Below are positions 8,924 through 56,477 of a stretch of DNA of 64,000 nt, one piece after another. Location: the IMG/VR virus record IMGVR_UViG_3300009183_000002, positions 1-64,000 of that record; one strand, given 5' to 3'. Position 1 is the first letter of the stretch. Each line of letters opens with the position of its first letter. The notes under the pieces are model-generated. The model was not told the DNA's origin. It saw only the letters and a list, made by a program, of their open reading frames with translations, and searched no databases. Origin of the DNA: a virus. A program made the translations under genes and the position numbers.

Positions 8924-9505
8924 ATGAGTACTTCACCTGAACTGAAGACTTGTCGCAAGGGTTTGCACCAGTATCCTGTTGATAAAAAACGGTGTCCAGA
9001 ATGTAGGCACAAATCAGCACGGCGATGGGATAATGCAAATCGTGAAAAAAAACGTGCAAATAGTCTTAAATGGCAAATTAAAAATCCTGAACGCAGTCGC
9101 AAAAACAAACGTAAACACTATCTCAATAATCTTGAACGTATGCGTGAGCTAAGACGTAAATGGAGAACAACACATGTTAATGAAACAAGTATGCACAACG
9201 CCAAACGTCGTGCCGCCAAAAAACAAGCAATAGCAGCCTGGGGAAACGAAAATGCTATTAAAAAGTTTTATGTAAAACGTACAGAGCTTACCAAACTTAC
9301 TGGAGTTCAGCACCATGGAGATCATATTTATCCATTAACATCCGACTGGGTTTGTGGTCTTCACGTAGAAAATAATCTTCAAATTTTGACTGAAGCAGAA
9401 AATATAGCAAAGGGAAATAGAATCTGGCCCGGTCAACTCGACTGTCAAAAAGGCTCAGTCTACGCTATATTTCCTAAAGAATTAACTGATCTTTTAAATG
9501 ACTGA
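8924..9505 (+). CDS. HNH endonuclease with N-terminal zinc finger
   Basis: 193 aa. N-terminal CRKGLHQYP followed by CPECRHKSARRW forms a Cys-rich zinc-finger-like region, then a very basic helix, then the HNH core HHGDHIYPLTSDWVCGLHVENNLQ (D-H ... H ... N order). Typical free-standing phage homing endonuclease. Overlaps the glycosyltransferase start by 8 nt. Confidence 0.8.
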   Translation: MSTSPELKTCRKGLHQYPVDKKRCPECRHKSARRWDNANREKKRANSLKWQIKNPERSRKNKRKHYLNNLERMRELRRKWRTTHVNETSMHNAKRRAAKKQAIAAWGNENAIKKFYVKRTELTKLTGVQHHGDHIYPLTSDWVCGLHVENNLQILTEAENIAKGNRIWPGQLDCQKGSVYAIFPKELTDLLND

Positions 9506-10769
9506 TAAAAAGCCTAAGCTCCTATGGGTAGCTGATTTTGCTGCAATGACTGGCTTTGGTCGGGTAAGTGGCGCTATTCTTCCGCGCTTAAAAAATAATT
9601 TTGAAATTGTTGTACTTGCTTGTAACTGGCATGGTGATCCAGTAAAAGAGCAAGAAGATTTTAAAATGTATCCAGCATCTAATCGGCATCAACCAGCGCC
9701 TTTTGGTGAAGATAGGATTCGAGAAATTGTTGAGCGCGAAAAACCAGACGTTGTATTTAGCTTGAATGATCCCTGGATTGTCTCGGAACAGTATCGACGT
9801 ATTGAAGATCTACACAAGAAAAAAAACTTTAAATTTATTGGCTACCTAACAATGGATAGCTACAACTGGATTGGAGGTATTGAAAAACATATCAACGATT
9901 GGGATGCTTTGATTGCTTTTACAGAATTTGGAGCGCACGAATTCTTAAAAGCAGGTATCAACCGGCCAGTTGCAGTTATTCCCCATGGTCTAGATACAAG
10001 TCTTTTCTATCCCATGGACAAAGCAGAAGCACGTAAACGTCTGAATTTAAAAGACGATATCTTTATTGTGTTCAACGGAAATCGCAATCAGTTTAGAAAA
10101 CGTATTGACATTACTATTTCAGCGTTTGCAAAGTTTGCTGTTGATAAACCAGATACACAACTGTATTTGCATATGGGTCTTAAAGATCAAGGGTGGCATA
10201 TCCTTGATGTTTTCGGGAGGGAAATGCGCAAAAATAATCTTGATCCAAATGGACGTATTATTCTTACCTCGCAATCGGAAGGGCCGCCAAACGTTGAGGT
10301 GGATATGTTAAATGCAATTTATAATGCAGTTGATATTGGCGTCAATACCACCAAGGGGGGCGGCTGGGAGCTTGTCAACTTTGAACACGCTGCCTGTCGC
10401 GTAGCCCAGGTAGTGCCTGCTCATACTTCCTGCAAGGAGATCTTTGAGGGGTACGGACGCCTGATTCGTTGTGATCACATCGACGTGGATGTCAACTACG
10501 CACGAGAAATGCCCTGCCCTTCCAGCGATCACCTTGCAGAGATCCTTACGGACTTGTATGAGAATCGTGAGAAGCTTGATGCGACAGCTGAGCTTTGTTA
10601 CACGCGTGTCACGGATAAGCAATTTGACTGGGACACGGTTGCGTTGCAGTTTGGCGGCGTATTTGAAGATGTGTTAAAAGGTGTTGACCACTCGATTGAA
10701 ACAGAGCCTACACCCAAGAAAAAGAAGAAGGTGAAGAAGGAGAAGCGCCTGGTAGGTGCCGTAAGCTAA
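9498..10769 (+). CDS. GT-B glycosyltransferase, family 4-like
   Basis: 423 aa. GT-B pattern: N-terminal Rossmann half with GFGRVSGAILPRL and DVVFSLNDPW; linker VIPHGLDTSLFYP; C-terminal donor-binding half with IVFNGNRNQFRKRID and the acidic signature GGGWELVNFEHAA corresponding to the EX7E region of GT4 enzymes. A Lys-rich tail (about 15 Lys in 20 residues) ends the protein. Donor and acceptor are unknown; glycosylation of DNA, virion or host surface are all possible. A strong terminator follows 18 nt later. Confidence 0.8.
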   Translation: MTDKKPKLLWVADFAAMTGFGRVSGAILPRLKNNFEIVVLACNWHGDPVKEQEDFKMYPASNRHQPAPFGEDRIREIVEREKPDVVFSLNDPWIVSEQYRRIEDLHKKKNFKFIGYLTMDSYNWIGGIEKHINDWDALIAFTEFGAHEFLKAGINRPVAVIPHGLDTSLFYPMDKAEARKRLNLKDDIFIVFNGNRNQFRKRIDITISAFAKFAVDKPDTQLYLHMGLKDQGWHILDVFGREMRKNNLDPNGRIILTSQSEGPPNVEVDMLNAIYNAVDIGVNTTKGGGWELVNFEHAACRVAQVVPAHTSCKEIFEGYGRLIRCDHIDVDVNYAREMPCPSSDHLAEILTDLYENREKLDATAELCYTRVTDKQFDWDTVALQFGGVFEDVLKGVDHSIETEPTPKKKKKVKKEKRLVGAVS

Positions 10770-10786
10770 TCCTGTTGAGAAGCCTT

Positions 10787-10818
10787 GCCCCTCGTCGTAC
10801 CCACGGCGGGGGGCTTTT
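10787..10818 (+). terminator. Rho-independent terminator after the glycosyltransferase
   Basis: An 11-bp GC-rich stem (with G-T pairs) from 10787 to 10814 with a 6-nt loop, followed by TTTT. Confidence 0.75.
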
Positions 10819-10937
10819 GCTTGCGTATTGTGTCTCACGGTAAGACCCAGGTGCAAAAGCTGGACAGCACTGAGCGAGTGTAAATCGTTGTAAACAATGA
10901 GATTGAGTGACAGACAGGGATTTGGAGGAAGAAAAAA

Positions 10938-11144
10938 ATCTCATTCGCGGTCGTGCACAGAAATGGCGAATGAGATCGTTTTACCCTAAAGATCAACAAA
11001 CTTTACATTTTTGCCTTCATTCGCGATTCTCATGAGAGTCATGAGTCTTATCGTGAGACATTAAGAGAATATAAAATGGCGAATGAAGGGAGAAATGTAA
11101 AGTTTGCTACTATAAGAAGAAAACTTATCTCATTCGCCATTTCT
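10938..11144. repeat. Nested inverted-repeat block with five copies of TCATTCGC
   Basis: Contains three inverted-repeat pairs. First, an 11-bp perfect pair ATCTCATTCGC/GCGAATGAGAT (10938-10948, 10966-10976). Second, a 27-nt pair with 24 matches (10998-11024, 11079-11105). Third, an 18-bp perfect pair (10959-10976, 11127-11144) that encloses the second. Inside the 27-nt stem sits CTCATGA-GAG-TCATGAG (11029-11045). The arm 10966-10976 can pair with either of two partners, so exclusive folds are possible. The 10819-10937 and 11145-11192 flanks hold no gene. Candidate origin, operator array, mobile-element end or RNA switch. Confidence 0.75.
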
Positions 11145-11192
11145 CTGCTCTTTTCGCAAATAAGGTAGAGTGTCCAAATCGCAAACCAAGTC

Positions 11193-12230
11193 ATGTCAAG
11201 GGATTACAAGGAACTGCCTCCGCTCTGGTATTTACAACAGCAATTTCAGCTGTCAGAAAAATACCCGAGTGGTCTGGAGTGGCGCGTCAAACGGGCTGGT
11301 TACCAAATCGGGGATGCCGTGGGATGCAAGCACCGCACCAACAACTTGTACACGGTCTACGTCTGGGGCGAGAAGTACCTGGCCCACCGCATTGTCTGGT
11401 ATCTACGCACTGGTCAATGCCCTGACGGCCACGCAGTGGAGCACGACGACTCAAACCCAGGTAAGGACAACCGCCTGGGCCTACGGGTCAGCTACGTAGC
11501 AAACAAGAAGCGCACCCTGCTGGTGAGGGAGACTAAATCATCAAGTCCCACTGAGATAAAAACTGAGACAGCACCGACAACCAGCACACGGATTTTTAAA
11601 TACGTTCACGGCATTGACGAACTCGACGAGTCTCAACTTGAGTCTCATGGGTATTACACTGGATATCCCTGCGTTCATGGTCATCGGATCCGCCACCATC
11701 AGGAACATTGGTGTTTTCACTGCATCATGAAGATTCAAACCAATATTTGCGGATTTGATCTCAACTACCTACACATCAACTACAAGGAACGCTACCGAAA
11801 GCTATGGAACACTATCGATGTTGGCGACCCAGAAGACTGCTGGAACATTCGTTTACCTGGCAAGGTGGGCCCCAAGCGTCAGTGCTTCCCCTCCTACCGC
11901 TCCTTTAACACCACTCAGCGTGTTGCCAACGTAAACGTCCACAAGTTGATCTATCAGTGTGCCTGGGGGGATGTGGGGTCCACAACGGTGACCAGGACGT
12001 GTGGCAACGTCTGGTGTGGCAACCCACTTCACATGGCCTCCTCCTGGAACCGTGGCTTACCACCTGAGCAAGTGCAACCATTTGAGCGCGAATACCAAGC
12101 AGAAAAATTAATGCTTATTGCGCGGGCCAAGCTCGAGCACAGAGAGCAGGAGGTTATACGGCGTGACTACAAAGCAACAATCACACACCCCTTGGAGGCT
12201 AAAGAACCGCCATATTATGATGAAGGATAG
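11193..12230 (+). CDS. Two-domain His-Me-finger (HNH) nuclease-like protein
   Basis: 345 aa. The first domain has YLAHRIVWYLRTGQCPDG followed by AVEHDDSNPGKDNRLGLR, an HNH_3-type core. A middle Cys/His cluster (YPCVHGHRIRHHQEHWCFHC) looks like a zinc site. The third part, with CWNIRLPG, VHKLIYQCAWGDVG and CGNVWCGNPLHM, matches the zinc-binding His-Me endonuclease pattern of I-PpoI-like enzymes. So two nuclease-like cores may be fused. Preceded by the nested inverted-repeat block, which could be its target or its regulator. Confidence 0.7.
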   Translation: MSRDYKELPPLWYLQQQFQLSEKYPSGLEWRVKRAGYQIGDAVGCKHRTNNLYTVYVWGEKYLAHRIVWYLRTGQCPDGHAVEHDDSNPGKDNRLGLRVSYVANKKRTLLVRETKSSSPTEIKTETAPTTSTRIFKYVHGIDELDESQLESHGYYTGYPCVHGHRIRHHQEHWCFHCIMKIQTNICGFDLNYLHINYKERYRKLWNTIDVGDPEDCWNIRLPGKVGPKRQCFPSYRSFNTTQRVANVNVHKLIYQCAWGDVGSTTVTRTCGNVWCGNPLHMASSWNRGLPPEQVQPFEREYQAEKLMLIARAKLEHREQEVIRRDYKATITHPLEAKEPPYYDEG

Positions 12231-12250
12231 GCATAAGATTACAATTTATA

Positions 12251-13171
12251 ATGGCACGTAATCAAACATCGCAACGTCAACGTACACAAGATAATCCTTT
12301 AAACCTTGGCTCATTTAGCCAAACTTCTTTGCGCTATTTAAAAGGAACGCTTGGTCCTGTTTCAAAAGTTATTGGGCGTTCGGATACTTGGGATACGTCT
12401 AACGGTGGATTTGGCGGCGGCACATACAATCATTGGTTCAAAGTTACTCTATTGAGTAATGCTTGGATTATTACTGCAAAAGGACCACCACGTCCCAAAT
12501 ACATTCAAGTGTCAGCTTATGATTTGAATCAAAATCCTATCCAAGAACGTGCAATTTTTGATGCGGATAGTGTTTCAGAAACAGTTGAAGGAGAAGTTTA
12601 CTATCCGTACGTTGGGCACACTATGGGTGCTCAATCAGATTTGTACAATACATTTAATCCTAACCGGCTTGACAGAGGTGATGACCGTTATTTTGTATTG
12701 CCTCCAGGGAGCTATTTACTGTGTGTATCGACGACACGCAATGAACCTCTTGATTATGCACTAGGTTTAGTCGTTGAGATTCAAGATATTGAATTTGAAC
12801 TACTTTTAGAAAACGGTGGCACTAACAAATTTATCTATGAGAATGAACTAAGTCTTGGTAATACGTCTGTTATTGGTCCTACCTTTCTTATTAATTACAC
12901 ACTTCCTATTGGTGAAAACGGATATACCGGTATCCTTGCAACGATTAATTCTGGAGCAACCGTTACCATATCAGATGGTTCCGAGTGGTTTATTAGTGAT
13001 GCCGTTCTTACCAATCCCCAAGATTTTATTTTGTGTGATACAACCGAAAATTATACAGGCGAAGACACACACATCCATTCACTTGATGAATGGCAAACAG
13101 CTTGGGAAAGGGAACATCAACAAGATAATCGATTCCCGGATGTATTCTTACCTTTGGTAACTTCTTTGTGA
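12251..13171 (+). CDS. Unknown protein, probably virion-associated
   Basis: 306 aa, beta-strand-rich, no transmembrane segment or catalytic motif seen. Segments such as WFKVTLLSNAWIITAKGP and YFVLPPGSYLLCVS resemble a jelly-roll or carbohydrate-binding style domain. Different strand from the virion block, so function remains open. Confidence 0.65.
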   Translation: MARNQTSQRQRTQDNPLNLGSFSQTSLRYLKGTLGPVSKVIGRSDTWDTSNGGFGGGTYNHWFKVTLLSNAWIITAKGPPRPKYIQVSAYDLNQNPIQERAIFDADSVSETVEGEVYYPYVGHTMGAQSDLYNTFNPNRLDRGDDRYFVLPPGSYLLCVSTTRNEPLDYALGLVVEIQDIEFELLLENGGTNKFIYENELSLGNTSVIGPTFLINYTLPIGENGYTGILATINSGATVTISDGSEWFISDAVLTNPQDFILCDTTENYTGEDTHIHSLDEWQTAWEREHQQDNRFPDVFLPLVTSL

Positions 13172-13207
13172 TAAGGTTTTATAACTGGTTAACGTGTAGC
13201 TTGCACT

Positions 13208-13432
13208 ATGACTGAACATGTTGAGATTACAACGTCGCAAAAAGACTGGGACGATTTTTTTGCCCCAGGGAATGATCCTGAAACTGCGTTTGATTCCGTG
13301 GATCAAGACTGGATCGGGATGTATATGGTTGGCGAGCATGGCAGTGAGCAAAAGTATGAAGCAACTCAACCAATGGATGCAACGCCGTTCGACTACCAGG
13401 GTCCGCCGTCTGGATATGTCTTTGACCGGTAA
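13208..13432 (+). CDS. Small acidic hypothetical protein
   Basis: 74 aa, rich in Asp/Glu (WDDFFAPGNDPETAFDSVDQDW). Overlaps the next gene start by 17 nt. No family recognised; acidic small phage proteins can be DNA mimics or inhibitors, not shown here. Confidence 0.6.
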   Translation: MTEHVEITTSQKDWDDFFAPGNDPETAFDSVDQDWIGMYMVGEHGSEQKYEATQPMDATPFDYQGPPSGYVFDR

Positions 13433-13646
13433 GTTTGGTCCTAAGACTCAAGCTATTGCAATACGTCAGGTACGCCAGTGGGTAGATAAAATTCCTGCTG
13501 GTGACTCAATTTGCTTACGTTGTGAATCAACAGTACCTGATAAACAGTTTCGGGTATGGAAAAAATGGTTTGAAAGACATGAGGATTTCAATTGGGAAAT
13601 ATCTGAGGAGCATAAATCTTTTTTCTTTTACAAAAAACGCTGGTAA
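13416..13646 (+). CDS. Small basic hypothetical protein
   Basis: 76 aa from ATG 13416, chosen because the longer frame would fully overlap the previous gene. Trp/Lys-rich (VRQWVDKIPAGDSICLRCES, then FRVWKKWFERHEDFNW). CLRC is a single CxxC. Unknown function. Confidence 0.6.
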   Translation: MSLTGKFGPKTQAIAIRQVRQWVDKIPAGDSICLRCESTVPDKQFRVWKKWFERHEDFNWEISEEHKSFFFYKKRW

Positions 13647-13672
13647 AATAAAGAAAACTACCAGGTTTAATC

Positions 13673-13834
13673 ATGAACATTTCTAAGTATGTTGAAACGG
13701 CGCTTGCAATTCATGCAGCAGCTAGTGCTATTACTGCACTGACACCTACCCCTAAAGATGATAGTGCTGTTCGAAGGGCGTATCGTGTAATCGAATTACT
13801 TGCTCTGGTTACTAGCCGTACCAAGCAACGCTGA
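13673..13834 (+). CDS. Small helical phage protein
   Basis: 53 aa, ATG 13673 to TGA 13834, in the pattern YVETALAIHAAASAITALTPTPKDD followed by YRVIELLALVT. Similar short proteins are recurrent in phages, function unknown. Convergent with the endolysin gene, 4 nt apart. Confidence 0.6.
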   Translation: MNISKYVETALAIHAAASAITALTPTPKDDSAVRRAYRVIELLALVTSRTKQR

Positions 13835-13838
13835 TTAC

Positions 13839-14933
13839 TTAGGCAATAATGCACCAGCCAGATTTTGGGCCTTCGACTAACCATCGGGGCTCAAAATTTT
13901 TGTAGCTGTAGTGTAGTTTTTTACCGTTGGTGGAATCATAGGTTCCAGATGTTAGGTTGCAATCACCCCAAGGATCATGCACCCAGTAACCTTCGGAATT
14001 GTATCCGATGATACAAAGCCAGTGGCCTCCACCCTGCGGATTTTGTGCGCTGCCATGGTGAAGGAATCCTGCGGGTACAGGTTTGCCCGAATCAATTTGT
14101 TTCTTAATTAAAGCTCGACTGCCTTGTGTAGTAAATCTAGCAGTAACGGCATAGTGTTTTAACGCGGCCAGTTGAGCGTTACTATCAGTACTATCACCAA
14201 AAGTAAAAACGGTTCTAATGTAATCATCATCATTTTTTATAGAGGACGGTTTTAAAAATTTCAACATCATGGCACAGCTTGAACTAAAGCATGTACGTGA
14301 TGCATCACGGTAATTATCCCGTTGACTCATGTAAATCACGGGGAGTGGATTTTGTTTTGGAGTTGGGCTACCACCAGGAGTTTGCAACCGCTGGTCCATG
14401 ATCTGAATTAGTTTTGTTGCGTAGTCTGGATCAGTTGCATACCCTTCTTTCACCAATAAATTGGCGCATGCGTTCCTATTGTCAGCTCGATTTACACCTT
14501 TATATGCTCCAAAGTCTTTGTACCAGCGGTTGACTAGGTACTCAACACAGGTTTGCAAACTTGGAAAATCAATGAAGCCATCATTGATTGTGATCCATTT
14601 ACCGTCAATAAATTCTTTGGTGTCAACACTAGTACCACTACCTTTAAGGCCAAAGTAATTATGCTTGCCTGACGTTGCAGTACCACCGGCACTTTCTAGT
14701 TGCCACTGTGCGGCTACAACTTCTGGGAATTTAGCACCAGACTGTTTTGCTGCTTGCAGGACACCGGCCCAGGTATTGGATATTTCAACAGAAGGCTTTG
14801 GTTTGTTGCGATATTTAACAGCAAAAGACTCCAGGACCTCAGGGGTGAGCTGAGTCTGGAGCCAGTTCCATGCGGTTATTTGATGCGGGAGTTGTTCGTC
14901 AAATTTTGCCGCATCGCTTAATTTAATTGTCAT
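13839..14933 (-). CDS. Bifunctional endolysin: glucosaminidase + C39-like peptidase
   Basis: 364 aa. Residues about 50-185 match the FlgJ-type glucosaminidase domain (VVAAQWQLESAGG with catalytic E80, then HNYFGLKG). Residues about 198-330 match a C39-like cysteine peptidase: YMSQRDNYRDAS, candidate nucleophile C215 or C220, GGGHWLCIIGY with H304, and YWVHDPWGD with D320. Together they would cleave both the glycan and the peptide of host peptidoglycan. No signal peptide is seen, so a holin or other membrane protein would be needed. Position next to the tail fibre block fits a late lysis gene. Confidence 0.85.
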   Translation of the reverse strand: MTIKLSDAAKFDEQLPHQITAWNWLQTQLTPEVLESFAVKYRNKPKPSVEISNTWAGVLQAAKQSGAKFPEVVAAQWQLESAGGTATSGKHNYFGLKGSGTSVDTKEFIDGKWITINDGFIDFPSLQTCVEYLVNRWYKDFGAYKGVNRADNRNACANLLVKEGYATDPDYATKLIQIMDQRLQTPGGSPTPKQNPLPVIYMSQRDNYRDASRTCFSSSCAMMLKFLKPSSIKNDDDYIRTVFTFGDSTDSNAQLAALKHYAVTARFTTQGSRALIKKQIDSGKPVPAGFLHHGSAQNPQGGGHWLCIIGYNSEGYWVHDPWGDCNLTSGTYDSTNGKKLHYSYKNFEPRWLVEGPKSGWCIIA

Positions 14934-14973
14934 GGGCCTAATGGTTTAATTAAGTTTAGGCCCAATCAATTTA

Positions 14974-15162
14974 TCAAAGAACTTCGGGAGTAACTTCAGT
15001 TACTTCTTCAGTTTTTTCTGTTTCTTCTGGTGCAAACTCAAGGGTGTCAATAAGTTCACCAATCAAGTTGGCAGCAAAAGCAATTAGGGTGCCATCGCCA
15101 GAAGCACGGGCGGAACCAAAGGAATTAATTGCCGAGACCAGTTGACTTTTTTTAGCAGCCAT
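14974..15162 (-). CDS. Small hypothetical protein with acidic tail
   Basis: 62 aa. N-terminal AAKKSQLVSAINSFGSARA, central hydrophobic LIAFAANLIGELIDTL, then a Glu/Thr-rich tail. The hydrophobic part is too short and polar to be a clear transmembrane helix. Between the fibre and endolysin genes. Confidence 0.6.
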   Translation of the reverse strand: MAAKKSQLVSAINSFGSARASGDGTLIAFAANLIGELIDTLEFAPEETEKTEEVTEVTPEVL

Positions 15163-15196
15163 GATGTTTAAAGCTTTTCAAAAAGTATAGCAATAA

Positions 15197-15520
15197 TCAC
15201 CAGGGAATGCCAGAAGCATCAACGGGATTTTGTTTGGTATCAAGCTGAGCAGATAGACCATTACAGATAGCTTCAACTTGCTCATCACCAAGAGCAGCCA
15301 AGACCCAGCCTACAACTTCACCTTCGATTAAGTCTGCGTAAGGTGTAAAATTATCGGGGTCTGGATCACCAAAGCCAATAGAGCCATAGCTGCCAGCGGT
15401 AAGATCATCACCACCAGTTACTTCGCGAGTAGCGGTAACGGTCCAGTGGGCAGTGTAGACGGCACCATCAGAAAGTTTACGCTCAAGCTGTGCAATGTGC
15501 CAGGTATAAGTATCAGCCAT
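15197..15520 (-). CDS. DUF7936-like phage protein
   Basis: 107 aa with the family pattern TYTWHIAQLERKL, YTAHWTVTATRE, YGSIGF and, near the end, ADLIEGEVVGWVLAALG and a closing ASGIPW. Similar proteins sit beside tail fibre genes in many cyanophages; their function is not established. Encoded directly downstream of the fibre gene. Confidence 0.7.
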   Translation of the reverse strand: MADTYTWHIAQLERKLSDGAVYTAHWTVTATREVTGGDDLTAGSYGSIGFGDPDPDNFTPYADLIEGEVVGWVLAALGDEQVEAICNGLSAQLDTKQNPVDASGIPW

Positions 15521-15593
15521 TTTAATGTGGTAGCTATGGTTTTATTATAAGGTAAAAAATTGTGAGATCAGTTAGTGAAGGTGACTAATAGGT

Positions 15594-17963
15594 CTAACAA
15601 GCCATCAGGACACAAGGCACGCAGTAGCTGCCGTCCTCATAGGTGCAGGTGATGTGGGTACTGGTGACCTTGGCGACGGTCTTGCTGCGGATGATGTCGT
15701 CGTCTTGGGGTTTGGCGGTTCCATCACCAGCAGACATCAGCAGATCGCCGCGCTGAACTGTAACGCCTTCGGCAATACGGATGATGAAGTCACCCGTCAT
15801 TGCGCAATAGAAGTCATCGGTATAAGTGTCGTCATCATCGTCCCAAGATTGGAACACGCCAGACACGTTCTTGTCACCTTCAACGTCACTCACCTTCATC
15901 CGGTTGAGTTGTTCGTTGTCTTCTTCGCCCCAGCCGCACATCTCGTCGATGTTGCTCAGCACCGTGCCACGCAGGATCTCGGTGCGCTTGGTGCCGCCGG
16001 GAAGTTGAGACCAGCGACTTAGGTGGGCACCGTTATAGCTGACGGTTGTGCCAGAGACGGAGATAGTGCCCTCTTCTGTTCCAGCTTGCCTAATTGAAAC
16101 AATTACTCCGTCATCGACATTTCTGTTCAACGAAAGGCTAGGCAACGAAGACGTAGATATAAATGTTTTCCCATTTGCACCTTCTGCCATCCACCCATTC
16201 GATGTATTGCCTTCTCCTGGATAAGTTGTTGTCCCAGCTTGTGCAGCTAAAAAGATATCCCCACCACTCGAAATCCTCATCCGCTCCGTAGGAGTAGCCG
16301 CGCCGTCTGCAGTAGTGGAGAACACTAGGCGGCCTGGGTAATCATTTGTTCCAGCGGCGCTATCAGCCAGCGTCGTAATTGTGGCAAAGTCATTTCCTGC
16401 GTTGTCAGAAAATGCAATTTTGCCAATTTCTTCCCCTGTAGTGATAGCAGTGGCGCCTTCGCCACGCATCAAATGCAACACACCACCTTCTGTTGCAGAG
16501 AAAGAGTTTCCTTGGACGAATAATTTGCCCGCGACAGGCGCACTAGACGTACCAACTAAGAGCCTGCCGCTGGAGTCGATGCGGGCGCGTTCAATGTTTA
16601 CAGTACCAAACGTTACGTTATAACTGTCATAGGCAAATAAACCTAAATTGCTATTTTGACTTTCAACTTTAGATGTTGTATCAGTGTAAAAATGTAAGCG
16701 GGCGGCGCTGCCTCCATTTACAAAACGAGCAACTTCGCCTACAACACCAGGAAGTTGAACAGTTAGGGGTGCGACAGGGCTAGTAGTGCCAATCCCTACT
16801 TGGCCTGATGCATCTATACGCAACTTTTCTGCAAGCGTTCCATTAAGTGTTGTATAAAAACGAAGACCAGCATCTTGGTTTGCGGCCGTTGTATCCCAAG
16901 GAGCTTCACCGTCAGCAGTGATCTTTGCCATTCCGAGCAAAGTGCCGCCATCGGTGGTTCTAGAGGAAAATTGAAGGCCAGCACCATAACCAGCAAATCT
17001 TCCTTCTAGTTCAAGTTGATAAGCGCCAACAACAAATTCCGTGCCCGCAACATGGAGTAACTTATTGGGGCTACTAGTTCCTATGCCTACGTTGCCAGAG
17101 GAGTTAACAGTCAGTCGTGCTGCCGAAGCGGTTGCGTCGTAGATAATAAAATTATTTGCGGATCCATATCCACTTCCAGTTGAACCCAAAAGGTAAGATC
17201 TGCCACTACTGGCTTGAAGTCGGATGGCGGCGGTATCGGCACCTGCTGCCGAAATGTGCAATAAATCGCTAGGGGATGAAGTCCCCAGACCTAAACGCCC
17301 ACTGGAGTCCAGGCGCATGTACTCAGTCGAAAGTGAAGCACCTGTAAAAATATGAACAGGACTTCTATACGAAAGTGTCGCGCTGGCACCAGCAGCTTGG
17401 ATGTAATTGGCAGCATTCCTCGTGAAGTTCAGTGTTGCACCATCAGAGGCAAACTCAACCGATCCAGCAGACCCGACAACAGTAAATCTTGCAGTAGGTG
17501 TTCCGGCAACACCGACATTCCCACTCGCATCAACGTAGAGACGCCCCGACCCATTAGTTGAGATGGCTACTTGGTCTGCGCCAGGTGAATAAATACCTGT
17601 GTTGGGATCGCTTGTAAAAGAAATCGAAGGTGCGGCAGCAGAACCTGCACCAAAAATACCAGAAGTAACTGTAGTAGTTGTACCGCTTAATGCAGTAAAT
17701 ACGCCACTGGTAAAACTAGCGGTAGTACCTGTGACTGTTACGCCTGAAAGCTGAGTAGTAAATACACCAGAAACAAAGTTAGCCGTAGTGCCGGTAACTG
17801 TAGTACCTGAGACGGTTGCACCTTGAATTGTGACGCCTGAAATCGTACCGGTAACAGTTACACCGGATGTAATGGCACGGTAAATACCAGAAACCGTAGT
17901 GGGTTGATCAGCACCATCATTGGTAAATGTAATATTATCAACTTTAATTGCACCGTAAGGCAT
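15594..17963 (-). CDS. Large repetitive tail fibre / appendage protein
   Basis: 789 aa. N-terminal 130 residues carry the TG/SG beta-repeats (SGVTVTGTTA, VSGVFTTQLSG) shared with the neighbouring fibre gene. The middle consists of recurring IDSSGRLGLGTSSP / VGIGTSSPNKLLHV units, typical of phage fibre shafts. The C-terminus has an Asp-rich stretch (SWDDDDDTYTDDFYCAMTGD) and RGDLLMSAGDGTAKPQ, resembling chaperone or autoproteolytic fibre ends (Peptidase_G2-like), with Cys at the extreme end (CVPCVLMAC). Probably binds the host surface. Confidence 0.8.
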   Translation of the reverse strand: MPYGAIKVDNITFTNDGADQPTTVSGIYRAITSGVTVTGTISGVTIQGATVSGTTVTGTTANFVSGVFTTQLSGVTVTGTTASFTSGVFTALSGTTTTVTSGIFGAGSAAAPSISFTSDPNTGIYSPGADQVAISTNGSGRLYVDASGNVGVAGTPTARFTVVGSAGSVEFASDGATLNFTRNAANYIQAAGASATLSYRSPVHIFTGASLSTEYMRLDSSGRLGLGTSSPSDLLHISAAGADTAAIRLQASSGRSYLLGSTGSGYGSANNFIIYDATASAARLTVNSSGNVGIGTSSPNKLLHVAGTEFVVGAYQLELEGRFAGYGAGLQFSSRTTDGGTLLGMAKITADGEAPWDTTAANQDAGLRFYTTLNGTLAEKLRIDASGQVGIGTTSPVAPLTVQLPGVVGEVARFVNGGSAARLHFYTDTTSKVESQNSNLGLFAYDSYNVTFGTVNIERARIDSSGRLLVGTSSAPVAGKLFVQGNSFSATEGGVLHLMRGEGATAITTGEEIGKIAFSDNAGNDFATITTLADSAAGTNDYPGRLVFSTTADGAATPTERMRISSGGDIFLAAQAGTTTYPGEGNTSNGWMAEGANGKTFISTSSLPSLSLNRNVDDGVIVSIRQAGTEEGTISVSGTTVSYNGAHLSRWSQLPGGTKRTEILRGTVLSNIDEMCGWGEEDNEQLNRMKVSDVEGDKNVSGVFQSWDDDDDTYTDDFYCAMTGDFIIRIAEGVTVQRGDLLMSAGDGTAKPQDDDIIRSKTVAKVTSTHITCTYEDGSYCVPCVLMAC

Positions 17964-20255: not shown

Positions 20256-20672
20256 ATGAATTACGGATTAAGGAAAGGACTGGAAGATATCGCATGGGAG
20301 CTAAAAGGTATTAGGAATATCTTGGGTTCCATGTGGCACAGCCGTTACCAAGATGGTGAGACAGACGTTTTAAATCCGGAGGCTTTTGCCGATGAGTACA
20401 TCTCGACAGAAGAATGTGCACGTCGCCTAAGTGTCTCTGATCAAACACTGCGTAATTGGATGGCTATGGGTCGAAAGAATCCAGAAAAAGGCTGGGTTGA
20501 AGGCATTCACTATGTCAATGCATCCCCAGATCCCAACCGTAAAGCAATCATCCGGGTGCCTTGGAATCACTTGATACGTTCTTTTGCTAAAAATCGTGAT
20601 CTTGATGCGCAAGACTACCGGAAAAAAACATCGCCCATGTATGTGTCCACAGGTTTTGACAGGTTGGAGTGA
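20256..20672 (+). CDS. HTH (MerR/excisionase-like) DNA-binding protein
   Basis: 138 aa. Residues 46-110 carry a winged-helix signature: ISTEECARRLSVSDQTLRNW followed by GWVEGIHYV and RVPWNHLIRSF. This is the excisionase/MerR-like fold used by phage regulators. The N-terminal 45 residues are of unknown role. First gene of a plus-strand cluster that includes a Dam-like protein and dCTP deaminase; divergent from the membrane protein gene. Confidence 0.75.
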   Translation: MNYGLRKGLEDIAWELKGIRNILGSMWHSRYQDGETDVLNPEAFADEYISTEECARRLSVSDQTLRNWMAMGRKNPEKGWVEGIHYVNASPDPNRKAIIRVPWNHLIRSFAKNRDLDAQDYRKKTSPMYVSTGFDRLE

Positions 20673-50770: not shown

Positions 50771-53626
50771 TTACCTGAGAGTAGAAAAGGTTCCGCCTGC
50801 GACAGAGACTCCTCTTTGTTTCATCATCTTATCAAGAAAAGACTGAGCTTCCCCTGGTTTACCCGTAAGTTGAAGTTGTCTAAGCTGGCGGGCAACATCA
50901 AAAGATTCTTGTTTTTGAGGGGTTGGTGTTTGCGTAACCATATCTGAAGCACGATAAGCGGGTTTACCAAAATCTTGAGTCATCTGTCGAATCATGTTTT
51001 CGGTCCCCGAGCCGCCAGGGAAAGCTACCAGTACGTCACCTTCTTTAGCCATTTGCGTGTTTCGTAATGTTCCAGCGGATAACCCCTGTTCATTCCAATT
51101 AGCAGGAAATACTTGAAGACCAAGGCCACGTTCTTGAGCATATCTTTCGGCTAACGTATCCGCGCCACGAGCACCTCCTGACACAATCTTTACACTCATA
51201 CCTTCTGGAATATTCAGTTGAGAAATAGTCTGATCAAGTTTCTGGCTTAACTCAGGATAGTTCTCATACTTACGACCGCCTGCAACAACAACGTTAACTG
51301 TTTGCTTGCCTTGCTTACGAGAGCCGGCTGGTAAACGCCAAGCAGAAGGCGAATTTGATGGGGAAATAGCTGCTTCGGGAGATGTGGATGACGCACCCAT
51401 AGCTGCACGTTGGACTCCATACATATCTTCAGAACTTAAGATATCAGAATAAGATTCTCCAGAGTTTTCACCACGAATAGATGTACGGCTTGCGGCCTGC
51501 ATTTTGAGAGGCTCTCCAGTTTCGGGGTCAAATGCATTAATGTTTGAAACGGATTTAGCACGACCACCAGAAAGCAAACCACCTGGCACAATTTCTAAAT
51601 CATTAGGCCCAGGTTGAGCCATCCTGGCACCGCGTTCAATATTAGAAAGCTCGCCACCCTCGGCTTCAAAAGACATAGTGTCAGGTGCGGTGCGCTTAGG
51701 GCGAACAACAGTTCCCTCACCGCTCCAATCAACTAAGGTGCTTGGCGTCCATTTAGAAAGTTCTTCAAGTTGCTCGTTGGCTGTATTAGTTGCACCTGCT
51801 AAACGGTTGTTAAGAAAATTAAGTTCTGACTCATTGTTTTGCATTTGATTGGCAACATTTCTAAGCTGTTGCCCAAGTTCGCGATCTGGTTTTTGATTTA
51901 AACTGTACAACAACATATTTTGTTGTTCACCTAAAGCAGCCTGTTGTTTTGCTAAAGCATTGATACGAGGAGTGACTTCAAGTCGAACACCTCCAAGCCA
52001 ATTTTTAACTTCGTTTTGTTTATTGATAAAATCTTGTTCAGAATTAATTGCAGTCTGTTCTGAGATAAATGGCTTACGGAAGGCAAGTTCTGGATCATCT
52101 TGCATCACATCTTTAATATTTACATCAAACTCTGTTCCACTTACCATACGGGTGTTAGGCATTTGCGACAAAGAAGCAGCTTGCAGATAACGAGGATCTT
52201 CTAAGCCAACTTCCATTGCTTGTTTTGTTTTTGTAAACTCACTGCCATACTCGTACGATTTAGGTCCAAGGCGAGATGCTAATTCTTTTTCAACTCTTCC
52301 TGTAGTTGCAGCACCACCTTCTTGTTCTAGTTGCGATGCAATGTTTCCACGTTGCTTAGCAATAAAATCCTTAACAAAACCTGTGGTGCTAACTGGTTGA
52401 CTTGTCATCTCAACACTTTGTCCAGGACCAAGGCCAGTCCGTGTTTGTCGAGGTGTATTTAAAGAAAACCGTTGGCCAGTGCGTAGGTCAATACCTTCAG
52501 CTTGATCAAGCGGGCGGCCATCAGGCATCATGTCTGCCACGGCGTTAACCGAAGCATCTTGGCGATTAGCTAATGCTTCCGTAGGTTGAGTCTGTGTACG
52601 CAGAGGTGCTTCATACGTATCTTGTAAACGGTCTACGGTACCAATGTCGATATCTTCATTACGCTGCAGTGCACTCATGGTGCGCCCCGTCATTTGATCT
52701 TCGCCCGATTCCAAGGCGTTGATTGCCTGGTCGACGTTAAAAGCACGTGTTGTCTGTTGTTGGTTTACGAGCGTTTCATTTTGAATCTCGCTTACCAGGT
52801 TCCAGAGGTTCTTGCGTTCTTGTGATTGGATGCTGGCTGCTTGCCTTGCAATCTCACTCCTGGCGCCTTTGTTGCTGAATGCGCTGACTTCATCAATCAG
52901 ATCACCAGCGGCTTGTTCTGCTGCACGATTTAGAACAGTCTGTTCAATGTAGCCACGACCGCCAAGTTGATTTGCTAAAAAGTCCGTGCCACTAGGACGA
53001 GTGGGCGGAAGAGCTTTAATTTCAGAAACAACGTCGTCAACGCCTTCTTGTAATTGACCATAAGGAGAAAATTGCCCTAACAGACCTTGACCACCCGTTG
53101 CTGCTGGTGGGTTGCCCAAATCTTCTACAGAAACTTTCTGGATTCCTAAAGTTGCACGCGCACGTTCGGGTGAAATGTTACTTAAATCTGTTTGCACAAT
53201 ACCAGGCATTCTTTCTGCCCTGGCAACACGGGCATTTTCCTCCATGGTGCCCAAACGTTCCACCATCCCACCAGGAGTTGGCCGTGCAGTAGGCGGTTGG
53301 CTAGGCGCTGGGGGACGTTGACTTGGAGGAGGTGCAGTTTGTTGACGACCAGCTGCGCGACGCACAGTTTCTTCAGCTTTACGTGCAGTGCTACCCAAAT
53401 CTTCTACTGAAACATTTTGAGTTGCGGTACGAGCTGCACGATTTGCTAATAAACGCTTAGCACCTAAGCCAGCAGCTACACCAGCACCAGCAACTAACGC
53501 CGCTTTACCTAACGCATCAATAAATCCACCGCCTTGGTCTCCACCTTCTTTCTGTCTGTCGGCTTCATACGCAGCTTGCGCCAAGAGAGCAGCTTGTAAA
53601 TTAGGATCGCTGTAATATGAAGCCAT
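50771..53626 (-). CDS. Large virion-like protein with C-terminal SLOG (YAcAr/DprA-like) domain
   Basis: 951 aa. N-terminus has a glycine-zipper stretch (DALGKAALVAGAGVAAGLGA) and two copies of VSVEDLG. The middle (about 150-770) is charged and Gln-rich. Residues about 776-895 form a SLOG domain: TVNVVVAGGRKYENYPELSQ, GGARGAD at 817-823 and FPGGSGTENM around 869-878, the phosphate-binding loops of nucleotide-binding SLOG/LOG/DprA proteins. SLOG proteins bind or cleave nucleotides or their signalling derivatives. First gene of the ejection-protein run; an injected nucleotide sensor is inference. Confidence 0.75.
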   Translation of the reverse strand: MASYYSDPNLQAALLAQAAYEADRQKEGGDQGGGFIDALGKAALVAGAGVAAGLGAKRLLANRAARTATQNVSVEDLGSTARKAEETVRRAAGRQQTAPPPSQRPPAPSQPPTARPTPGGMVERLGTMEENARVARAERMPGIVQTDLSNISPERARATLGIQKVSVEDLGNPPAATGGQGLLGQFSPYGQLQEGVDDVVSEIKALPPTRPSGTDFLANQLGGRGYIEQTVLNRAAEQAAGDLIDEVSAFSNKGARSEIARQAASIQSQERKNLWNLVSEIQNETLVNQQQTTRAFNVDQAINALESGEDQMTGRTMSALQRNEDIDIGTVDRLQDTYEAPLRTQTQPTEALANRQDASVNAVADMMPDGRPLDQAEGIDLRTGQRFSLNTPRQTRTGLGPGQSVEMTSQPVSTTGFVKDFIAKQRGNIASQLEQEGGAATTGRVEKELASRLGPKSYEYGSEFTKTKQAMEVGLEDPRYLQAASLSQMPNTRMVSGTEFDVNIKDVMQDDPELAFRKPFISEQTAINSEQDFINKQNEVKNWLGGVRLEVTPRINALAKQQAALGEQQNMLLYSLNQKPDRELGQQLRNVANQMQNNESELNFLNNRLAGATNTANEQLEELSKWTPSTLVDWSGEGTVVRPKRTAPDTMSFEAEGGELSNIERGARMAQPGPNDLEIVPGGLLSGGRAKSVSNINAFDPETGEPLKMQAASRTSIRGENSGESYSDILSSEDMYGVQRAAMGASSTSPEAAISPSNSPSAWRLPAGSRKQGKQTVNVVVAGGRKYENYPELSQKLDQTISQLNIPEGMSVKIVSGGARGADTLAERYAQERGLGLQVFPANWNEQGLSAGTLRNTQMAKEGDVLVAFPGGSGTENMIRQMTQDFGKPAYRASDMVTQTPTPQKQESFDVARQLRQLQLTGKPGEAQSFLDKMMKQRGVSVAGGTFSTLR

Positions 53627-54370: not shown

Positions 54371-54386
54371 GATACGAATTCGTATC
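54371..54386. promoter_or_regulatory. 16-bp palindrome GATACG-AATT-CGTATC
   Basis: Perfect palindrome, extended by AGGC/GCCT on the flanks. The same arms with a different 4-nt centre recur at 57211-57226, suggesting a binding site for a dimeric regulator. Confidence 0.45.
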
Positions 54387-54458
54387 GCGCCTGAAATTGG
54401 GGAAGGATCCTTCGCACGACAGGGTTCAGATAGAACTGTAGTTCGCTTGGCACTGGGG

Positions 54459-54478
54459 TTTTCCACAGGTTTTCCACA
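54459..54478 (+). promoter_or_regulatory. Two tandem DnaA-box-like sites
   Basis: TTTTCCACA at 54459-54467 and again at 54470-54478. This fits TTWTNCACA and matches the box form reported for cyanobacterial DnaA. Confidence 0.55.
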
Positions 54479-54525
54479 GGTAAGCCCAAGCATTCACATC
54501 TAACACTCGCACACATCTCAACACA

Positions 54526-54711
54526 ATGACACGTTCACTCATCGCTTCATACATGTTTGTATTCGGCGTCATCGCAACTGTTGGCACACAGCTCAGCGTA
54601 CAGAAACTTGAGGCTGCAACTGCAACTCAATGTATCCAGCATGACTGGCCAGTGAAAGCTCACCAGGTTCACATGGCTTGGTGTGCAGCCAACAACTATC
54701 GAACTAACTGA
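54526..54711 (+). CDS. Small secreted protein with two cysteines
   Basis: 61 aa. MTRSLIASYMFVFGVIATVG is a signal peptide; after a likely cleavage near EAATAT comes a 28-residue mature part with QCIQHDWPVKAHQ and HMAWCAANNY, two Cys able to form a disulphide. First early gene. Its TGA lies in the 5' strand of structured element 1. Function unknown; periplasmic in inference. Confidence 0.65.
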   Translation: MTRSLIASYMFVFGVIATVGTQLSVQKLEAATATQCIQHDWPVKAHQVHMAWCAANNYRTN

Positions 54712-54751
54712 GTACCAGGCGTGAGCCGAGGGATCGAATCCCTCACTCAGT
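54707..54751 (+). ncRNA. Structured RNA element 1 (T-arm-like three-way junction)
   Basis: Outer stem ACTGAGT/ACTCAGT (7 bp, 54707-54713 with 54745-54751), hairpin GGC-GTGA-GCC (54718-54727), and a T-arm-like GAGGG-ATCGAAT-CCCTC (54728-54744) that directly abuts the 3' outer strand. The upstream gene's stop codon is within the 5' strand. Element 4 has the same structure with compensatory changes. Confidence 0.65.
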
Positions 54752-54753
54752 AT

Positions 54754-54778
54754 TACCCCCAGCGGAGATGGGTACCGC
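54754..54778 (+). promoter_or_regulatory. Interleaved-stem element preceding a start codon (copy 1)
   Basis: TACCC (54754-54758) pairs with GGGTA (54770-54774) around the 11-nt loop CCAGCGGAGAT; loop bases GCGG (54762-54765) match CCGC (54775-54778). This is a pseudoknot or two exclusive hairpins. Copies at 54994 and 55526 vary in compensatory fashion. The next GTG start is 17 nt downstream. Confidence 0.5.
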
Positions 54779-54794
54779 ACACACGAGTAACACC

Positions 54795-54950
54795 GTGGCA
54801 ATTCGTAAGAACCTTGCTCAACAATTCGCTAATGCCGCCAAGGCATTGGAGAAAGATCAGAGCAAGGAGAAGCTTGGCTTAGCAATCATGGCTGCTCGCA
54901 TTGGTCTTGCCAATGCAATCATGCCGAAGATTCCTCCAGTCAAGCGCTGA
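54795..54950 (+). CDS. Small helical basic protein
   Basis: 51 aa from GTG 54795, the first in-frame start after the interleaved-stem element. AIRKNLAQQFANAAKALEKD then EKLGLAIMAARIGLANAIM: amphipathic helices. Weak Shine-Dalgarno (ACGAG). Unknown function. Confidence 0.5.
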   Translation: MAIRKNLAQQFANAAKALEKDQSKEKLGLAIMAARIGLANAIMPKIPPVKR

Positions 54951-54966
54951 TTCGTACAAGCGAGTT

Positions 54967-54985
54967 GGGAGGTGCAAACCCTCCC
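54967..54985 (+). ncRNA. Structured element 2 (TGCAAAC stem-loop)
   Basis: GGGAGG-TGCAAAC-CCTCCC: 6-bp stem with a 7-nt T-loop-like loop. A shorter GCTG/CAGC outer pairing exists (54949-54952 with 54987-54990). Follows the stop of the 51-aa gene. Confidence 0.45.
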
Positions 54986-54993
54986 ACAGCTAT

Positions 54994-55018
54994 TGCCTCC
55001 CGCAGAGATAGGCACTGC
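54994..55018 (+). promoter_or_regulatory. Interleaved-stem element (copy 2)
   Basis: TGCCT (54994-54998)/AGGCA (55010-55014) with 11-nt loop CCCGCAGAGAT; loop GCAG matches CTGC (55015-55018). An AGGAG follows at 55024 and GTG at 55035. Stem bases differ from copy 1 at paired positions on both sides. Confidence 0.5.
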
Positions 55019-55034
55019 ACAACAGGAGATTCCT

Positions 55035-55259
55035 GTGGACCAAGTCTACGTTCTTATGGGTTCTGTAATCTGTGATTACGACCAAGGAGACACTTGGGTA
55101 CAAGGCGTTTATGCAGATGAAGAATCTGCTTATCGCTACAGGGCTATTCTTGAAACAGAACAGCTCCAAAGAGGGATTGACTTAATTAAGTCAGATCCCA
55201 AAGCGAGCATCACCATTGATCGTCAATGGTCTGTTCGTCCTCATAAGCTAATCCGTTAA
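55035..55259 (+). CDS. Small hypothetical protein
   Basis: 74 aa from GTG 55035 with AGGAG 6 nt upstream. VYVLMGSVICDYDQGDTWVQ followed by ADEESAYRYRAILE: a compact alpha/beta protein. TAA stop lies at the edge of element 3. Unknown function. Confidence 0.6.
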   Translation: MDQVYVLMGSVICDYDQGDTWVQGVYADEESAYRYRAILETEQLQRGIDLIKSDPKASITIDRQWSVRPHKLIR

Positions 55260-55266
55260 AGCGGGT

Positions 55267-55314
55267 GACCAGGTGCAAACCCTGGTCTAGCAATTGCCAC
55301 ACACTGAGTGTGGC
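55267..55314 (+). ncRNA. Structured element 3
   Basis: GACCAGG-TGCAAAC-CCTGGTC (7-bp stem, 7-nt loop, 55267-55287), then GCCACAC-ACTGA-GTGTGGC (55296-55314). The second hairpin is repeated exactly in element 5. No outer three-way stem is evident here. Confidence 0.5.
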
Positions 55315-55326
55315 TCACTCAAGACC

Positions 55327-55482
55327 ATGACAACCACATATCAACAACTCCGTCAGTACTTTACTGAACAAGAGTTGGACAACGCAACAGTTATCACACG
55401 TCATGTGCAACACGATTTTCCGCACATGACATACGCAGAGATTTACATCAACCTTCTGGTTCAGATGATTGCTGAACGTTGA
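55327..55482 (+). CDS. Small hypothetical protein
   Basis: 51 aa from ATG 55327. TYQQLRQYFTEQELDNATVI, then a helix with HVQHDFPHMTYAEIYINLL. The TGA is in the 5' strand of element 4. Unknown function. Confidence 0.55.
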   Translation: MTTTYQQLRQYFTEQELDNATVITRHVQHDFPHMTYAEIYINLLVQMIAER

Positions 55483-55522
55483 GTACCAGGCGTGAGCCGG
55501 GGAATCAAATTCCCCACTCAAC
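55478..55522 (+). ncRNA. Structured RNA element 4
   Basis: GTTGAGT/ACTCAAC (55478-55484, 55516-55522), GGC-GTGA-GCC (55489-55498), GGGGA-ATCAAAT-TCCCC (55499-55515). Same 45-nt architecture as element 1 with base-pair-preserving changes in both long stems and an identical ACCAGGCGTGAGCC middle. Confidence 0.65.
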
Positions 55523-55525
55523 TAT

Positions 55526-55550
55526 TGCCTCCCGCAGAGATAGGCACTGC
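55526..55550 (+). promoter_or_regulatory. Interleaved-stem element (copy 3)
   Basis: Same 25-nt sequence as copy 2 (TGCCT/AGGCA, loop CCCGCAGAGAT, CTGC). The ATG at 55567 is 17 nt downstream, with TAGAG between. Confidence 0.5.
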
Positions 55551-55566
55551 ATACATAGAGTTATCC

Positions 55567-55851
55567 ATGGCTATCAACGGTGATCTTGACCTTAGTAAAG
55601 GTTGGATCAAACATGCCAATGTTCCAGGGGGTTACTTCCTGGAATATACGGACGACGTTGTGTATCTCACTATCGTCACAGGCCCTCCAGGTTCTGGACT
55701 GATGGGCATTATTGCCCCAGGAGTAGAGACTACATACGAGGCCTGGCTTCCTGGTTTAGCCAACCCAACAGGTCATCTAACTCTCCAGGAGATACGTGGC
55801 GTCATTCGTTACCTTCATGAGAAGGCAATAGAAGATGCTATGTATGACTGA
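55567..55851 (+). CDS. Hypothetical protein
   Basis: 94 aa from ATG 55567. AINGDLDLSKGWIKHANVPG then LTIVTGPPGSGLMGIIAPGV and a C-terminal helix. GPPGSG resembles but does not satisfy a Walker A motif (no GKS/T). TGA lies in element 5. Unknown. Confidence 0.6.
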   Translation: MAINGDLDLSKGWIKHANVPGGYFLEYTDDVVYLTIVTGPPGSGLMGIIAPGVETTYEAWLPGLANPTGHLTLQEIRGVIRYLHEKAIEDAMYD

Positions 55852-55927
55852 GCTGTAGTACTGCACTACAAGGTGTAGGGCTAGGTGCAACTCCTAGCCT
55901 CAGTAATTGCCACACACTGAGTGTGGC
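55847..55927 (+). ncRNA. Structured RNA element 5
   Basis: Outer ACTGAG/CTCAGT (55847-55852, 55899-55904), hairpin TGTAGT-ACTGC-ACTACA (55854-55870), and GGCTAGG-TGCAACT-CCTAGCC (55879-55899); then GCCACAC-ACTGA-GTGTGGC (55909-55927). A larger variant of elements 1 and 4, again with the stop codon embedded. Confidence 0.55.
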
Positions 55928-56390: not shown

Positions 56391-56404
56391 TTTGATTCAA
56401 ATTT

Positions 56405-56452
56405 GATGTTTGCCCAGAGGGTTTCGGCCCTTTCTGCAGACTTCATGTCTGC
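56405..56452 (+). ncRNA. Double-hairpin element, copy 1
   Basis: Conserved GATGTTTGCCC leader, AGAGGG/CCCTTT hairpin (56416-56433) and GCAGAC-TTCAT-GTCTGC hairpin (56436-56452). Recurs at 56738-56786 with a different first stem. In the spacer before the 85-aa gene. No U tract, so not a standard terminator. Confidence 0.5.
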
Positions 56453-56477
56453 TATCAACTCAACCTAGTTCAATACC

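Follow-up and report, generated by a model that had tools for sequence, protein, structure and literature searches.

In plant RNA viruses, tRNA-like structures mimic a tRNA at the 3' end of a protein-coding RNA; in mitochondria, complete tRNAs punctuate the transcript and are excised by RNase P and RNase Z; and in MALAT1-type processing, RNase P cuts at the 5' side of a tRNA-like fold. The RNase III sites of coliphage T7 are irregular long stem-loops that have no elbow. In tRNA, the acceptor/T stack comprises 7 + 5 positions. The enzyme that processes tRNA 3' ends, RNase Z, cleaves on the 3' side of the discriminator base, which is unpaired. It grips the elbow with a clamp and relies on distance together with local features, and the elbow-to-acceptor distance is measured by RNase P as well (PMC4919913). 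The RNase Z of B. subtilis is stimulated about 200-fold by a U within 2 nt of the discriminator (PMC10100781), while cytidines directly after the discriminator inhibit RNase Z (PMC7479834).

Here, we describe a family of small RNA elements that resembles each of these systems in part. With the CCA-less tRNA genes that are matured by RNase Z in cyanobacteria and B. subtilis, the elements share the 12-position stack, the 18-55/19-56 elbow, and the single unpaired base followed by U, and chromosomal elements also share a terminator straight after; unlike these genes, they have no anticodon arm, measure 40 to 60 nt, often carry the T-loop UGCAAAC, are joined to an mRNA at their 5' side, and often hold a stop codon in the acceptor strand. 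Like the plant-virus structures, they are tRNA mimics at the 3' end of a coding RNA, but they occur in DNA phages and bacterial chromosomes, form internal arrays in polycistronic RNA, and have no anticodon arm, encoded CCA, or acceptor pseudoknot. As with MALAT1, a tRNA-like fold would direct tRNA enzymes to a long RNA, whereas the stop codon in the 5' strand of the elements argues that here the fold stays on the upstream mRNA. Mitochondrial punctuation likewise has tRNA folds bordering genes in polycistronic RNA; the elements differ in being partial folds that overlap the gene, which, rather than ending before the 5' edge as in the mitochondrial type, has a stop codon that overlaps the element in 216 of 257 copies. 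T7 RNase III sites are also structured sites between phage genes, and in T7-like cyanophages the elements are found ahead of the capsid gene and at junctions of early genes; unlike the T7 sites, they have an elbow. The element family is absent from Rfam.

Results

Five elements in an array of small phage genes

The window, that is, the whole stretch of DNA that was analyzed, comprises the first 64 kb of the 82,433-bp virus record IMGVR_UViG_3300009183_000002, from a virus in which a terminase and a major head protein are recognizable. Between 54.5 and 56.1 kb, six small genes on the + strand leave five junctions with one element in each, and we verified all five elements at the coordinates proposed in a first-pass annotation of this DNA. 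Searches of protein libraries gave no name for any small gene of the array.

54526..54711, +, small gene 1: 61 aa, no family; stop in element 1
54707..54751, +, element 1, type A: P1 54707-54713/54745-54751; hairpin 54718-54727; T arm 54728-54744; stop codon TGA 54709-54711 inside; model R2, E 5.8e-24
54752..54779, +, leader of gene 2: discriminator-like A, UU, pseudoknot-like module (ACCC/GGGT, GCGG/CCGC)
54795..54950, +, small gene 2: probable GTG start, from homology with L002; stop in element 2
54945..54991, +, element 2, type B: P1 54945-54949/54987-54991; D hairpin 54952-54963; T arm 54966-54986; D loop TACAAG, T loop TGCAAAC; stop TGA 54948-54950 inside; model R1, E 9.4e-21
54992..55019, +, leader of gene 3: A, UU, pseudoknot-like module (GCCT/AGGC, GCAG/CTGC)
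55035..55259, +, small gene 3: probable GTG start; stop in element 3
55246..55292, +, element 3, type B: P1 55246-55250/55288-55292; D hairpin 55253-55264; T arm 55267-55287; D loop TTAAAG, containing stop TAA 55257-55259; model R1, E 9.4e-23
55293..55314, +, leader of gene 4: A, UU, 7-bp hairpin GCCACAC-ACTGA-GTGTGGC
55327..55482, +, small gene 4: stop in element 4
55478..55522, +, element 4, type A: P1 55478-55484/55516-55522; hairpin 55489-55498; T arm 55499-55515; stop TGA 55480-55482 inside; model R2, E 7.6e-23
55523..55551, +, leader of gene 5: T, A, UU, pseudoknot-like module
55567..55851, +, small gene 5: stop in element 5
55847..55905, +, element 5, enlarged type B: P1 55847-55851/55900-55904; longer D hairpin 55861-55878; T arm 55879-55899; T loop TGCAACT; stop TGA 55849-55851 inside; weak match to model R3, E 0.019; relatives L004, L014, L033, L035
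55905..55927, +, leader of gene 6: A, A, UU, 7-bp hairpin GCCACAC-ACTGA-GTGTGGC

All five elements follow one plan, in which an outer stem (P1) encloses a short D-arm-like hairpin and then a T-arm-like stem-loop (P3), the 3' strand of which continues straight into that of P1. Each forms a three-way junction, with RNA folding z scores of -3.8, -3.4, -3.3, -5.0, and -1.8 for elements 1 to 5. The single architecture that had been recognized in elements 1 and 4 stands, and we refer to it as type A (hairpin GGC-GTGA-GCC); its T-arm loop, taken to have 7 nt, is smaller, since the first and last loop bases pair (A-T, G-C, or C-G among relatives) and leave a 5-nt UCRAA loop. Elements 2 and 3 keep the T-arm-like part, as described, but also have the outer stem and a 3-bp hairpin (TCG-TACAAG-CGA in element 2, CCG-TTAAAG-CGG in element 3). 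Hence, elements 1 and 4 make up type A, and elements 2, 3, and 5 type B (in 2 and 3, hairpin CCG- or TCG-TNMAAG- and T loop TGCAAAC), so that element 5 is not a larger version of 1 and 4. A stop codon of the upstream gene, previously noted inside elements 1, 4, and 5, is present in all five. Downstream of each element come one or two bases, then UU, and then another structure, namely, a pseudoknot-like module after elements 1, 2, and 4 and a 7-bp hairpin after elements 3 and 5. The pseudoknot-like module shows covariation in both helices and has a third loop of 1 nt; its two helices could form simultaneously or in alternation.

Several other features lie around the array. A conserved block before it (window 54380-54490) contains repeats of the DnaA-box-like GGTTTTCCACAGG and is a possible origin or promoter region; the block with GGTTTTCCACAGG is also found at L002 about 12790-12880 and L003 about 860-930 (-). 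At window 54783-54797, 55024-55037, and many other loci, GGAG and the downstream start codon lie within small hairpins (for example, CACGGAGAACACCGTG, CATGGAGATATCCATG, and CAGGAGATTCCTGTG). Past the array, at window 56400-56455, two more hairpins, AGAGGGTTTCGGCCCTTT and GCAGACTTCATGTCTGC, sit between small genes, and GTTTGCCCAGAGG from this hairpin region is found again at the end of L002. On the opposite strand, a gene at window 50771-53626 (-) encodes a 951-aa protein with VVAGGRKY...GGARGADTLAERYA in its C-terminal part, which presumably resembles a SLOG/DprA-type nucleotide-binding domain.

Relatives and helix covariation

DNA patterns located about 200 further loci in viral contigs, and a geometry detector, calling two stems that abut on the 3' side and a 7-nt loop NNCRANN close to TTRCC, yielded 257 non-identical sequences; models R1 to R3 served to locate copies in isolated phages and genomes. 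The elements are thus more numerous than first described. About 290 non-identical relatives, a count that, like the others, is inflated by related sequences, fall into three architectures with strong helix covariation. In type C, there is no D stem, AUGGUGYA alone separates the stems, and the T-loops are true tRNA T-loops (TTCGAYT). The D region ranges among copies from no stem to long stems, with the shape alone being conserved.

Upon scoring covariation in the helices, we obtained 0.627 for type B (shuffled mean, 0.170), 0.346 for type A (0.156), and 0.426 for type C (0.155), with none of 500 shuffles as high in any of the three and far lower scores for slid registers. Since covariation is present in three alignments and copies occur in about 200 other virus contigs, chance is excluded; other genomes with covarying copies, whose absence would have told against the first-pass annotation, do exist. 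The first pair of P1 is the least conserved of the outer stem and is paired in 37 of 48 type B sequences.

ARAGORN made no tRNA call at the elements, and Rfam (release 15) gave no tRNA, riboswitch, or other family match there. The open-access literature yielded no description of these elements, which may be described elsewhere. Glutamine-II riboswitch aptamers occur on the same contigs as elements, away from them, at L138 764-828 and L280 3513-3565 (-).

Likeness to tRNA

The likeness to tRNA that had been proposed from the array alone is strongly supported by the 12-position acceptor/T stack, the T-loops, and a covarying elbow. P1 and P3 together span 12 positions in 145 of 257 sequences and 11 to 13 in 249, the mode of the sum remaining at 12 despite a split into 5 + 7, 6 + 6, or 7 + 5. 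An anticodon arm is absent in all element types.

With the loops numbered as in tRNA, the combinations of D-loop positions 18-19 and T-loop positions 55-56 include AG/GC (186 copies), GG/TC (11), CG/GC (6), and CA/GT, where one scan used the type B pattern and so favors AG/GC copies, the other combinations having come from other scans. A rule that allows A.G, C-G, or G.U at 18-55 and G-C or A-U at 19-56 fits 204 of 211 sequences, whereas 5000 shuffles gave 176.5 on average and never more than 185; the loose detector had picked up several of the seven misfits from bacterial loci. Chromosomal copies found later brought the new combination AA/GT (L342, L349, and L365) as well as GG/TC (L366), and they obey the rule. 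Paired elbow changes are seen in types B and D, whereas in type A, the hairpin loop GTGA and the loop UCRAA are too constant to reveal elbow covariation. At the level of sequence, the elbow is established for type B and the TTC-loop forms, and on this footing, with the 18-19/55-56 covariation as the decisive evidence, the element is a tRNA elbow without the anticodon arm. The covarying elbow provides a natural record of the 18-55/19-56 combinations that are able to build the tRNA corner, and the element shows how small a portion of tRNA suffices for the shape.

Position at gene ends

In 216 of the 257 phage copies, the element overlaps the stop codon of an open reading frame with 55 codons or more, usually at element bases 4 to 6 in type B and 3 to 5 in type A, an overlap that could also come from the packing of compact genomes. 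Where homologous upstream genes were followed by different downstream genes, the element type was shared at 0.76 versus 0.60 expected (permutation p 0.0005), while for homologous downstream genes, sharing was 0.58 and not above expectation. For the hairpin or pseudoknot module, it was homologous downstream genes that went along with sharing (0.72 versus 0.51, p 0.0005). Locus pairs are not independent and these p values are therefore rough; the contrast between upstream and downstream genes was made within one data set. It follows from this contrast that the element belongs to the upstream gene, and the module that comes next to the downstream gene.

Occurrence in phages and picocyanobacteria

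Elements of the type found in the array also lie between small genes of Synechococcus phage S-EIV1, and the carriers comprise S-EIV1-like phages, T7-like cyanophages, contigs with psbA, and a few GC-rich phages. A search with models R1 to R3 placed copies in three isolated phages.

S-SBP1: copies at 929, 1325, and 19298
S-CBP42: four early junctions and before the capsid gene
P-SSP7: copy at 20632

In T7-like cyanophages, a conserved open reading frame of about 17 to 20 codons (YRGVxY) ends within the copy that precedes the major capsid gene; this frame lies at about 20592-20645 in P-SSP7 and, with its homologs, is mostly unannotated. The elements are thus not specific to an early polycistronic transcript, the setting that the first-pass annotation had offered as one reading: they also precede the late capsid gene and, as shown below, follow single genes in cyanobacterial chromosomes. 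Type C occurs before psbA in two contigs, in an array of about eight in a phage of 61% GC, and once in Streptomyces phage Dagobah, the sole match of a type C blastn search in annotated phages; the same search with the GC-rich form gave no match. In the GC-rich phage locus L302 (G003 9000-16000, - strand), a type C array has RC rather than NU after the fold, and TTGACA/TAGACA and TAGGAT-like boxes follow each element, near the next start. Because promoter-like sequence, with the next start close behind, comes after the element in this GC-rich phage, the element there is the 3' end of the preceding gene.

In bacteria, an exact-pattern scan of genomes returned 24 scattered matches, mostly chance; informative, by contrast, was the model search within the right picocyanobacterial family, where R1 matched in 25 of 121 genomes (E up to 1e-6). 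A sample of the whole class had R1 matches in 3 of 194 genomes, all three belonging to the 25. At least 16 chromosomal copies lie 9 to 25 nt past the stop codon of one gene family, which is marked by the sequence MSQLTIKVSAKADALIAQLQKEIFNRRRKK... and a basic lysine/alanine-rich tail, has no name in Pfam or NCBIfam, and includes L337 1907-2455, L338 2085-2621 (-), and homologs in L340-L366. The next gene is convergent at several chromosomal copies. In copies of a second kind (L342, L349, and L365), one base, UU or UUC, and an intrinsic terminator follow directly, a layout that is that of a tRNA gene, with the fold, one base, U, and terminator. For such chromosomal copies, with a convergent gene or a terminator coming next, a role for a downstream gene is impossible.

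The 3' edge

In 283 of 290 copies of types A to C, one of the two bases after the discriminator is a U, although this U could partly belong to the downstream module. CC follows the discriminator in only 2 of 290, and no CCA is encoded after the fold. The U rule does not hold everywhere, since RC takes the place of NU behind the stem in the GC-rich phage copies L279 and L292. As a control, we considered tRNA genes without encoded CCA, which have U at +1 in 40 of 42 cases in two cyanobacterial genomes and U at +1 or +2 in 32 of 36 cases in four smaller ones, these control genomes not being proven hosts of the metagenomic phages. Both genomes that we checked carry an RNase Z gene.

Discussion

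We suggest, at a probability of roughly 0.5, that the upstream mRNA finishes in the element as a tRNA-like 3' end and that RNase Z is the likeliest enzyme, an assignment that we draw from sequence and in which the cut is inferred. The element would be a tRNA mimic reduced to a minimum, in which an acceptor-like stem stacks on a T arm and a D-loop/T-loop elbow closes the fold, and it would form the 3' end of the gene with which it overlaps. The RNase Z cut would fall behind the unpaired base that follows the outer stem, next to the conserved U or UU. After cutting, the upstream mRNA would retain its stop codon and terminate in a compact tRNA-like fold that may resist 3' exonucleases, its cut end might receive CCA, and the downstream mRNA would start with its own pseudoknot or hairpin. 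Termination at a stop codon that is usually part of the acceptor-like 5' strand requires the ribosome to unfold the element, and translation may thus gate folding and cutting. The weak conservation of the first pair of the outer stem and the RC of the GC-rich phage copies speak against the RNase Z reading. Tentatively, and as something we would sooner doubt than assert, picocyanobacteria and their phages may route selected mRNAs through tRNA 3' maturation, with an RNase Z cut, perhaps CCA addition, and gating by the ribosome. If true, this would constitute a previously unknown way of forming and protecting bacterial mRNA 3' ends, linking mRNA 3'-end formation to the enzymes of tRNA maturation, and phages would divide their messages by it; T7-like cyanophages, which are abundant in the ocean, would divide and protect messages in a manner unlike the RNase III sites of T7. 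Isolated phages and laboratory hosts exist, with S-CBP42 and S-SBP1 growing on Synechococcus WH7803 and P-SSP7 on Prochlorococcus.

Other functions would account for parts of these observations. The fold might remain uncut by any tRNA enzyme and act as a 3' stabilizer, either a barrier to 3' exonucleases or a mark of the message end, while other nucleases, such as RNase E at the short AUU linker, would generate ends that are then trimmed to the fold. The position at gene ends in phages and chromosomes alike, the stable folds, and the short AU-rich linker that joins two structures are all consistent with this; a plain hairpin would be enough to block, however, so that the 12-position stack, the covarying elbow, and the single base followed by U go unexplained, and we consider such a stabilizer unlikely. 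The annotation had offered tRNA-like punctuation or processing as one reading, of which the tRNA-likeness holds and processing is plausible, while its classical form, with RNase P cutting at the 5' edge, RNase Z cutting or not at the 3' edge, and the element being excised, appears very unlikely. A 12-position stack does fit the elbow-to-acceptor measuring of RNase P (PMC4919913), but a 5' cut would strip the upstream message of its stop codon in the 216 of 257 copies with an overlap, which disfavors excision; the first pair of the outer stem is poorly conserved; and some chromosomal copies have a terminator straight after, with nothing to split.

Two further readings would tie the element to the next gene. 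A fold that senses or assists termination and aids the next start, like an intergenic ribosome entry site, would make sense of a stop codon within the fold, of a next start often 30 to 50 nt beyond, and of the many downstream starts that lie within a small hairpin with purine-rich GGAG. Such translational coupling is nonetheless quite unlikely, given that several chromosomal copies lack a nearby co-directional gene and three have intrinsic terminators, that the downstream gene does not set the element type, and that over 100 nt separate the copies at capsid genes from the start. We also considered a riboswitch that binds a ligand and serves the next gene, with T-loops in a three-way junction, since cobalamin riboswitches share the loop U-G-N-A-A-A-Y; T-loops are present in known riboswitches, and the start often comes about 40 nt after the element. 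Against it, the D region can lack a stem or have long ones and keeps only its shape, copies go with the upstream gene and occur at chromosomal 3' ends, and Rfam gave no riboswitch match at the elements, which together leave this reading highly improbable. The RNase Z reading places the element with the upstream gene.

Some other candidates were rejected. Stop-codon readthrough or bypassing as a general function, suggested by the constant stop, does not agree with downstream frames that are often soon closed or with several chromosomal copies that have nothing to read into. Cassettes like the attC sites of integrons would need outer repeats in the other orientation, as we reason from the letters. 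The phage fold is not an intrinsic terminator, as it is followed by N-UU and another structure with no U tract directly after a GC-rich stem, and three chromosomal copies have a separate terminator after the fold. Nor are the elements decayed tRNA genes: the common loop UGCAAAC differs from the T-loop sequences of tRNA, and selection is evident from the elbow changes, which come in pairs.
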